Assembly (NCBI GenBank): GCA_023382335.1
Contig: JAMCPM010000006.1
Span: forward strand, 196,372 to 260,371
Origin: Actinomycetota bacterium
Lineage (GTDB): Bacteria > Actinomycetota > Thermoleophilia > BMS3ABIN01
Length of the DNA stretch: 64,000 bases
Direction of reading: 5' to 3'
Shown: positions 46,000 to 52,258 of the stretch, one piece after another
Numbering within the stretch: the stretch's first letter is position 1
Layout of the letters: every line of letters starts with the position of its first letter
Notes under the pieces: model-generated
Told to the model about the DNA's origin: nothing
What the model saw: only the letters and a program-made list of their open reading frames with translations
The model's database searches: none
Made by a program: the position numbers and the translations under genes

Positions 46000-46015
46000 T
46001 GGCATGGTCTTTGCT
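46000..46015 (+). promoter_or_regulatory. sigma-54 promoter
   Basis: TGGCATG-GTCT-TTGCT matches the consensus TGGCACG-N4-TTGCW at all but one defined base. GG (46001-46002) and GC (46013-46014) are separated by exactly ten bases. Transcription should start near 46026, giving a leader of about 180 bases before the ATG at 46209. Confidence 0.85.
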
Positions 46016-49880: not shown

Positions 49881-49896
49881 TGGCATGGATATTGCT
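49881..49896 (+). promoter_or_regulatory. sigma-54 promoter
   Basis: TGGCATG-GATA-TTGCT, with GG at 49882-49883 and GC at 49894-49895 (ten bases between). It shares the TGGCATG-N4-TTGCT core with the promoter at 46000. It lies 45 bases before the ATG of the DUF4418 gene. Confidence 0.85.
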
Positions 49897-49941: not shown

Positions 49942-50418
49942 ATGAAAAAATCTACCAGAATGGGCGTCGGAGCCGGAGTCATCACTCTGGGCGGCATCAT
50001 CGCCATAACCCCTCGCTTCTTATTCCCAGTGTGCGAGTACAATGGCATTTTCGTGCAACTTGCCAATAACAGAACCGATTTCATGCACTGCCACTATACG
50101 ACCGTGGCATCTTACCTGCTCGCAGGCATGATCGGCCTGATCGGCACCACCATTTTGTTCGCAAAGGAGCGCGAGACCACTCGCCTTCTGTCCGTCGTGC
50201 TGGCGGGCGCCGCAGTTGCCGTCATCCTCACACCGGTAGTATTCCCCATCTGCCAGAACCCTGATGAACCGTGCAACCACGGAACCAAGCCGATGCTGAT
50301 CGTGATGGGCATCATCACCTTCTTCATGGCCGGCTGGCTGAGGACCACCTCTCGCAAGACGCGTGCCGTTTATTGCAGCCGGTCCGTCCGGGATTCGGCA
50401 CAGCCACAACAGCAGTAA
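49942..50418 (+). CDS. DUF4418 family membrane protein
   Basis: 158 residues, four hydrophobic helices. Conserved Cys residues lie in extracytoplasmic loops (FPVCEYNGI, FMHCHYTTVASYLLAGMIGL, PICQNPDEPCNHGTKP), the pattern of DUF4418. The His/Cys pair and the CNxxTKP-like segment are the family signature. The ATG follows a very strong AAAGGAGG. It is the first gene behind the second sigma-54 promoter. Elsewhere DUF4418 genes accompany FtsX-type ABC permeases and their ATPases, and such a pair lies at 43555-45444. A role as accessory to that exporter is plausible but unproven. Confidence 0.85.
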   Translation: MKKSTRMGVGAGVITLGGIIAITPRFLFPVCEYNGIFVQLANNRTDFMHCHYTTVASYLLAGMIGLIGTTILFAKERETTRLLSVVLAGAAVAVILTPVVFPICQNPDEPCNHGTKPMLIVMGIITFFMAGWLRTTSRKTRAVYCSRSVRDSAQPQQQ

Positions 50419-50542: not shown

Positions 50543-51988
50543 ATGCGCAATACCAGAATGCTGAAGTACTTTTTAATCGGGGGCGCCCTGCTGATATTCC
50601 TGTCTCTGGCTGCCACCGCATCGGCGATCGCGGACACAACCGCGCCGGTGGTAACAAACGTCGTACCGGTCAATGGCAGCACTATCTACACCAACGGCGG
50701 CTCCACGATCTATTACCAGCCGGGGAACACCACTCCGATGGTGATCAAGGCCGACTACAGCGACGAAGCTGGCGGCAGCGGTGTGGACGCAACCAGCATC
50801 ATGGTCCACCTGGACGGAATGAACATGCTGAGCGACTGCCCGGTGCAGACGGCCTCACACGTCGAATGCAACGCGACCGCCGCCGACTTGTTCCCGGGAA
50901 CACACGACCTCGACATCTACGTCTACGATCTTGCCGGTAACGGCACGATCAATCATACGACCCTGACTGTCAGCGTCGATAACCAGGCTCCGACCTACTC
51001 CAATCTGACGCCTGCCGCCGGCAGCACCATCTATACATCCCAGTTGAACAGCACCGGCATCAATGATATGAGCGCCCTTCGTTTTGACTATGATATTGCC
51101 GACGCGGCGCCGTCGAGCGGCTATTCCCCCATGAGCCATGTCAACGACACCAGCCCCCCAAGCGTTCCCGGCGGCATGATCTCGAACAGCTCCTGCGTGA
51201 AAACGCCAACAACCAATCCGACTCACTATTCATGTCAGGCGAACAGGGCAAGCCTGCTGCATCTGGGCACTAACACCTTCTCGGCCCTGCTCAAGGACAA
51301 GGTCGGTAACAGCAACTATTCAGATCCCTCGAGCGTGAGCACGTACACCGTGGTTGACGATGTCGCACCGGCAATCAGTGGCATCACTGCCAACCCGGCC
51401 ACAATAGCCGCATCTTACGCTGACCCTCTGCCAACCGGCGCGCTGTCCACGAATCTGGCCAGCGGCATCAATTCAGGCACGGCCATGGTGCATGTCGACG
51501 GCGCCATGATCATGACGGGCTGCATCGCGACTTCAACAGGCATAAGCTGCCCGACTCCCGCGGGCCTGGCTTCGGGCTCACATGTCATTGAGGTCATGGT
51601 TACGGATAACACCGGCAACAACGCCCGCGCAACCCTCAGCTTCACGACCGGCAGGCCGGCGCTGAGCCTTGGCGCACCGGCTCCTCGCTGGGGATCCTAC
51701 GCCGACTACACCGCCGGCATACTCACTGTGGACTGGACCCTGAGAAACACGGGCTCGACCAACGCCAGAAGCACGACCCTGACCTGTGCCGGCAACAGCA
51801 ACGGCGTCATCATGAACGGCCCGGCAACAGCGATTCTCGGCGATATCGCGGCAGGCGGTTCCGCTAGCGGCACCCTCAGATATGAGGGAATTGTCAACGG
51901 CGGTTACGTGGTCGTCGGCAGCTGGCACACGACCAATACGAGCACAGCCCTGGATGACCTCGGTAACCTGTATACCTACCCGGTGTGA
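50543..51988 (+). CDS. secreted Ig-like protein
   Basis: A 481-residue exported protein. The signal peptide is KYFLIGGALLIFLSLAATAS. At least three Ig-like beta-sandwich modules follow, beginning near DTTAPVVTNVVPVNGSTIY, QAPTYSNLTPAAGSTIY and DVAPAISGITANPATI, and each holds a paired-Cys segment (DCPVQTASHVEC, GCIATSTGISC). A C-terminal CARDB-like domain (VDWTLRNTGSTNARS) ends the protein. ATG 50543 follows CCGGAGGAATG. It is 124 bases after the DUF4418 gene and is followed 45 bases later by the small Cys/Trp peptide. All three are probably on one sigma-54 transcript. Confidence 0.82.
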   Translation: MRNTRMLKYFLIGGALLIFLSLAATASAIADTTAPVVTNVVPVNGSTIYTNGGSTIYYQPGNTTPMVIKADYSDEAGGSGVDATSIMVHLDGMNMLSDCPVQTASHVECNATAADLFPGTHDLDIYVYDLAGNGTINHTTLTVSVDNQAPTYSNLTPAAGSTIYTSQLNSTGINDMSALRFDYDIADAAPSSGYSPMSHVNDTSPPSVPGGMISNSSCVKTPTTNPTHYSCQANRASLLHLGTNTFSALLKDKVGNSNYSDPSSVSTYTVVDDVAPAISGITANPATIAASYADPLPTGALSTNLASGINSGTAMVHVDGAMIMTGCIATSTGISCPTPAGLASGSHVIEVMVTDNTGNNARATLSFTTGRPALSLGAPAPRWGSYADYTAGILTVDWTLRNTGSTNARSTTLTCAGNSNGVIMNGPATAILGDIAAGGSASGTLRYEGIVNGGYVVVGSWHTTNTSTALDDLGNLYTYPV

Positions 51989-52033
51989 TTGGCCGATCGG
52001 CGGTCAGCCACTCCAATCGATCGGAGAGTCCGA

Positions 52034-52171
52034 ATGATACCGAAAAATGAAGCGGGTCTGAAACAGTACGAGAAACCACGCCTGCTACGGCATGACAACC
52101 TGAAGAAGCTAACATTCGAGTGCCCGGCCTGGCAGTGCAGCGTGAGCGTGCCACCGCCCCCTGCACCCTGA
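52034..52171 (+). CDS. putative RiPP precursor peptide with lasso-type leader
   Basis: A 45-residue peptide. Residues 12-27 read YEKPRLLRHDNLKKLT. This fits the recognition sequence of lasso-peptide leaders (Y-x2-P-x-L-x3-G-x5-T), with Asp in place of the usual Gly at position 21. The tail is CPAWQCSVSVPPPPAP. A classical lasso needs an Asp or Glu at position 7-9 of the core, and none fits, so another modification of the two Cys and the Trp is more likely. ATG 52034 has GGAG seven bases upstream, and a terminator follows 56 bases after the stop. No modifying enzyme, RRE protein or leader peptidase is in the window. The frame is open to 51989. Confidence 0.65.
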   Translation: MIPKNEAGLKQYEKPRLLRHDNLKKLTFECPAWQCSVSVPPPPAP

Positions 52172-52226: not shown

Positions 52227-52258
52227 GCGAAAGCGGCCCCGGAAGGGGCCGCTTTCGC
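52227..52258 (+). terminator. rho-independent terminator ending the second sigma-54 operon
   Basis: Perfect 14-base stem GCGAAAGCGGCCCC (52227-52240) and GGGGCCGCTTTCGC (52245-52258) with a GGAA loop, 55 bases after the peptide gene. Confidence 0.8.

Follow-up and report, generated by a model that had tools for sequence, protein, structure and literature searches.

The window, a 64,000-nucleotide stretch of DNA from a bacterium of the class Thermoleophilia, contains at 52034..52171 (+) a gene for a 45-residue peptide that we interpret as the precursor of a linear RiPP. We hold it probable, with real doubt remaining, that an RRE, a kinase and a B2 peptidase encoded far away from the window act in trans on this and other dispersed precursors, and that no cyclase takes part. 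As judged from comparison of genomes, the reading frame is real, conserved and confined to one GTDB family. Cleavage, phosphorylation, binding, linearity, function and surface role of the peptide are all inferred; biochemical or expression data are not available.

The peptide gene and its family

Translation of 52034-52171 (+) from the start codon ATG yields MIPKNEAGLKQYEKPRLLRHDNLKKLTFECPAWQCSVSVPPPPAP*. A ribosome-binding site, GGAGAG (52023..52028, +), is found just 5' of the ATG and a hairpin (52227..52258, +) downstream of the gene, and the 45-residue frame is as the first-pass annotation had described it. The same annotation had placed the gene at the end of a sigma-54 operon followed by a terminator. 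The possible sigma-54 promoter TGGCATGGATATTGCT (49881..49896, +) is a pattern match with one mismatch, which is plausible but not significant alone; two sigma-54-like sites were found in the window versus 0.7 expected. The second, TGGCATGGTCTTTGCT, is located at window 46000-46015 near the start of the 46-kb gene block. The first gene of the putative operon (49942..50418, +; reading frame with a AAAGGAGG site) encodes a small membrane protein of 158 amino acids from ATG 49942. The gene directly upstream of the peptide gene (50543..51988, +; reading frame and Pfam) encodes a 481-aa protein that is presumably secreted and contains Big_13 Ig-like domains as well as a YTYP C-terminal domain (see below), its stop being separated from the peptide ATG by 45 nt. 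The hairpin is strong (14 bp, −35 kcal/mol, fold z −6.2) but lacks a T-run, which explains its absence from the terminator scan; it remains a possible terminator.

The peptide had been called an orphan, which it is not: the source genome carries 10 further copies (11 in total), and the family is multicopy in relatives. Most copies share YxKPxLxxHxNLKxITFECPxWQCSVxVPPPPx; the paralog at C13:57855 keeps the leader and W-x-C-S and has an Asp/His-rich tail. By profile search the peptide is present in all 19 genomes of the GTDB family, with 4-12 copies each, and in none of 280 other genomes of the class Thermoleophilia. Within the named genome collection every match is a MAG, bearing the label Thermoleophilia, Gaiellales, Actinomycetes or uncultured; Bacterium BMS3Abin01 is among them. 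Absence of the tail from close relatives would have refuted the earlier proposal; the relatives keep it. Across 61 distinct peptide genes pN is 0.17 and pS 0.65 (codon analysis), and variability at third codon positions is roughly threefold that at first and second positions, although this set is biased to conserved members because the search pattern demanded some conserved residues. That the frame is spurious could be argued from its shortness and from the lack of any match of the peptide in Pfam and NCBIfam; against conservation in 19 genomes, all of the compared genomes being drafts, and against purifying selection and the ribosome-binding site, we give this explanation practically no credence.

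A second paralog class (L229-L241 in other family genomes; L017 about 9880) has the same leader and W-x-C-S combined with other tails. In most of the divergent paralogs, which were found via the leader, W-[QNTS]-C-S or no less than C-S is retained, followed by a tail rich in His, Gly, Asp or Ser that is possibly metal-binding. C-S is thus what the classes share, and only the main class has the Pro tail together with the first Cys. Separately, a class with CPxFxCSIxVP (Phe or another residue for Trp) is found in several genomes behind an EF-G-like gene (L014, L086, L098), a conserved position without a YTYP neighbour. Matches in genus g3 that were flagged with an internal stop were considered as broken genes, an interpretation that was rejected; they are shorter peptides ending VPPAP.

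Leader, core and the question of a ring

In lasso precursors the leader has the register Y-17, P-14, L-12 and T-2, the last in most of them (PMC10368454). In the peptide from the window the leader comprises residues 1-28 (52034..52117, +), in which Y12, P15, L17 and T27 occupy positions −17, −14, −12 and −2, counted from an assumed cut after Thr27-Phe28; the cut site is inferred. In the 61 genes the Y, P and T are invariant and the L position is L or I, and therewith the lasso requirement of YxxPxL at −17 to −12 plus Thr at −2 is met in alignments and counts. The four residues, and Asp21 in place of the usual Gly, are located where the first-pass annotation had put them. Asp or Glu replaces this Gly in most copies; Gly is found in several paralogs, one of which (on C22) passes the lasso leader model NF033521 (lasso_leader_L3) with 20.1 bits at a cut-off of 19. 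The proposal that the gene encodes a RiPP-type precursor whose leader is of the lasso type is supported as far as sequence can tell.

The predicted core, ECPAWQCSVSVPPPPAP (52118..52168, +), has 17 residues; its modification is inferred. It contains the two Cys, the one Trp and the Pro run (four consecutive Pro and a final one) that had been claimed for the tail. The element kept most widely, across both classes, is W-x-C-S. Because C-S is common to the classes, its serine (Ser36, core position 8) is by inference the natural candidate for a kinase. Core positions 7-9 are Cys-Ser-Val, so that the acidic residue (Asp/Glu) of a lasso ring is missing there, as had been noticed before, and a lasso ring is unlikely.

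A dedicated lasso macrolactam cyclase (C protein) was not found in the source draft genome, an absence that is strong but not absolute. The genome encodes three full-length Asn-synthetase proteins, and most family genomes encode two or three full-length PF00733 proteins, which in principle could cyclise the peptide in trans and to this extent count against a linear product. An Asn-synthetase homolog or another ligase would then be an unrecognised cyclase forming an unusual ring on a precursor whose leader, RRE and B2 are all of the lasso type. We regard such a macrocycle as improbable. Each of the three proteins passes the asparagine-synthase model, and the lasso-cyclase model gives them only 214-346 at a cut-off of 525. 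Core positions 7-9 offer no Asp or Glu, and in one family genome (G008, 98% complete) that has 11 peptides, an RRE and B2 there is no full-length Asn-synthetase homolog. The latter finding is not decisive, since the two genes of its sisters are close together in several of them and one assembly gap could remove both. Together, the missing cyclase and the missing acidic residue argue for a linear product without proving it.

The absence of lasso machinery from the neighbourhood, which had been pointed out earlier, is correct for the window, in which no RRE, B2 or Asn-synthetase gene was found; RRE, B2 and kinase are, however, encoded far away in the same genome. Two clear PqqD-type RREs are encoded in the genome, each far away from the window. 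One belongs to a run of overlapping genes on contig C8 encoding an HprK-like kinase (L025 8687-9787), the B1-like RRE (L025 9784-10086), a B2-like peptidase (L025 10055-10495) and a DUF2079 protein (L025 10492-12390). B2 passes the curated model NF033537 (45.7, cut-off 33) and also PF13471. Its catalytic-type Cys and His do not vary among 16 sequences, whereas no residue could be matched to the Asp that is usually counted in the B2 triad; comparison with PDB sequences gave nothing useful. The RRE is above cut-off with PF05402. In NCBIfam it scores best with a lasso PqqD model, although its 61 bits stay under the cut-off of that model (80), and among solved structures TbiB1 is the closest relative. 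With PF05402, PF13471 and NF033537 above cut-off, the genome has the B1 RRE and the B2 leader peptidase that a lasso system requires. The P-loop of the kinase is invariant, its best curated models are HprK-related kinases, all below cut-off, and its AlphaFold2 model (pLDDT 84) has a PEPCK-type kinase fold, which is the fold class of HPr kinases.

Most genomes of the family retain the genes for kinase, RRE and B2. RRE matches were obtained in 19 of 19, one of them weak (in a genome 69% complete), and B2 matches above cut-off in 16 of 19. In G006 (78% complete) the RRE was seen only linked to radical SAM and B2 was not found, nor was it in the incomplete G018; in G016 the B2 gene is 20 kb away from the RRE. 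A PF14907 NTP transferase is encoded on the RRE contig, about 0.5-30 kb off, in eight genomes including the source, and is absent or located elsewhere in the remaining ones. Glycosyltransferases surround the C8 operon; such surroundings have been described for LPP (see below) and paeninodin clusters (PMC13381572). The small ORFs adjoining the two RRE genes do not include a CPxWQC peptide; they comprise merely two Cys-rich precursors that belong to another system. Because no precursor was found next to the C8 operon, its pairing with the peptides rests on leader type and co-occurrence. Maturation in trans, as suggested by the first-pass annotation, has support at this level; the processing in trans itself is still inferred.

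The second RRE belongs to a RiPP-like cluster on contig C6 (C6:384000-398323; L026 6353-10264, minus strand) that encodes an archaeal-type signal peptidase (TIGR02228, below cut-off), an HprK-like protein, a radical SAM/SPASM protein, the RRE and the two Cys-rich precursors, MARQTYVEPKIERVPLIPEEAVLSNCKC... and MMSRQAYVEPRIERVPLIPEEAVLSACKC... It resembles an LPP cluster to which a radical SAM enzyme has been added, here outside Bacillota. A few family genomes other than the source also carry additional RREs of a different type. The C6 enzymes, being present in the same genome, might mature the peptide, e.g., by a cross-link at W-x-C, which with the following Ser is the most constant core element. 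We think this very unlikely, since the cluster encodes two precursors of its own, whose leader is different, and since radical-SAM-linked RREs occur in only part of the family, the peptides in all of it.

According to the favored scheme of a linear product, the stand-alone RRE (B1-like, PqqD family) would bind the lasso-type leader and present the precursor to the kinase and B2, both from the coupled operon on C8. The HprK-like kinase would probably, or at least perhaps, phosphorylate the invariant serine of the core (Ser36), and B2 would probably remove the leader after Thr27-Phe28. Speaking against this scheme, besides the missing B2 in the incomplete genomes G006 and G018 and the unassigned Asp of B2, is the phosphorylated Ser, which is at core position 3 in the one published LPP and in Bsf, the candidate here being at position 8. 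Without a lasso cyclase the core would stay linear save for a possible disulfide between Cys30 and Cys35; the nucleotidyltransferase (PF14907), found in the same region in several genomes, may add a further group. A single enzyme set would thus serve about ten dispersed precursors, and the peptides may act at the cell surface together with YTYP-domain proteins.

The YTYP-domain proteins

The YTYP C-terminal domain of the protein encoded before the peptide (51650..51985, +; profile search) has about 105-112 amino acids and is a beta-sandwich in the AlphaFold2 model (pLDDT 92), whose last strand is YTYP; the domain ends in YTYP or YTYPGPxP. It occurs in 31 proteins of the source genome and in 18 of 18 family genomes searched, versus 0 of 12 outside. 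The rest of these proteins is variable (Big_13 Ig-like in the window; rhodanese, multicopper oxidase or purple-acid-phosphatase-N/fn3 in others), and their secretion is inferred from N-termini and domains. A fold search with the domain found only generic Ig-like folds with modest TM-scores, and therefore no function can be derived from structure. In two family genomes (G008 and G015; L105 and L132) a YTYP-domain gene is tail-to-tail with the kinase-RRE-B2 operon, which is a further link between the peptide machinery and the YTYP systems.

Of the 59 peptide genes for which sufficient upstream sequence is available, 40 are preceded by a gene for a YTYP-domain protein, located 34-112 nt before the conserved Tyr codon of the peptide. 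In the source genome 7 of the 31 YTYP genes are followed by a peptide gene (hypergeometric P about 1e-11, assuming 2400 genes). From this, from the same family restriction of the domain among the genomes searched, and from the hydrophobic-x-hydrophobic-Pro-rich ends common to peptide and domain, one could conclude that the peptide is not a free RiPP at all; it would be a small partner of the YTYP proteins (a docking strand or tail, or sharing their export or anchoring) with the leader as a sorting tag. This would leave the exact lasso register and the B1/B2 operon unexplained, as well as the 19 of 59 peptides without such a neighbour, including the class behind the EF-G-like gene, and the 24 of 31 domain genes without a peptide. 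It is a minor possibility in our estimate, somewhat less remote than a macrocycle, and can also hold alongside a linear RiPP matured in trans. The YTYP link suggests a surface role, which is the least tested part of our interpretation. More speculatively, dozens of YTYP proteins and the cyclase-free lasso-leader peptides with their like Pro-rich ends may form a lineage-specific surface system, the peptides being assembly parts or signals rather than antibiotics; we consider this a tentative idea that is more apt to fail than to hold.

Comparison with known systems

In the open-licence literature we found no paper on such precursors in Thermoleophilia and none on B1/B2 with dispersed precursors. 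The proposal of a new peptide class was nevertheless too strong, since linear phosphopeptides made with HprK and RRE but without a cyclase have already been described. These linear polyphosphorylated peptides (LPPs) of Bacillota depend on HprK, an RRE and a peptidase, and are said to be restricted to Bacillota (Popov et al., 2026; PMC13381572). The Thermoleophilia system shares with them the stand-alone RRE, the HprK-like kinase (assigned by weak curated matches and fold), the YxxP leader motif, the lack of a macrolactam cyclase, an NTP transferase and the location of genes near polysaccharide loci. When YxKPxLxxHxNLKxITFEC is compared by eye with the LPP precursor consensus YxxPxVLxHQxIxFETxxS (PMC13381572), Y, P, often H, and FE align; Q, T and the spacing do not. 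The systems differ in that LPPs use an SpI-like serine peptidase, which is not found in the Thermoleophilia operon, the lasso B2 cysteine peptidase being present instead, in that LPP clusters contain 1-3 precursors rather than about ten dispersed ones, and in the position of the core Ser.

With the phosphorylated lasso peptides (paeninodin type, Bsf) the system has in common the leader register, B1, B2 and the HprK-like kinase. In Bsf, BsfK aided by B1 phosphorylates core Ser3, and B2 cuts behind the −2/−1 residues (PMC10368454). A cyclase and an acidic ring residue are, however, part of these systems; neither was seen in the Thermoleophilia system. The single enzyme set for many, possibly genome-scattered precursor genes is reminiscent of the prochlorosins and ProcM (PMC10783134), which differ by their lanthipeptide chemistry, Nif11 leader and highly variable core as opposed to RRE, kinase, B2 and a conserved core.

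On sequence evidence, a lasso recognition and cleavage module works without a cyclase and serves precursors dispersed through the genome, which are overlooked when RiPPs are mined by cluster; cyclase-free, kinase-bearing relatives of lasso systems are placed outside Bacillota. The gene order ties the peptides to defined secreted proteins and so offers a way to approach the biological role, as yet unknown, of phosphorylated peptides of the lasso type. Since the defining features of both LPPs (SpI-like peptidase) and lasso peptides (cyclase and acidic acceptor) fail, the system is a member of neither group; the best reading is that of a B2-using relative of the LPPs of Bacillota.
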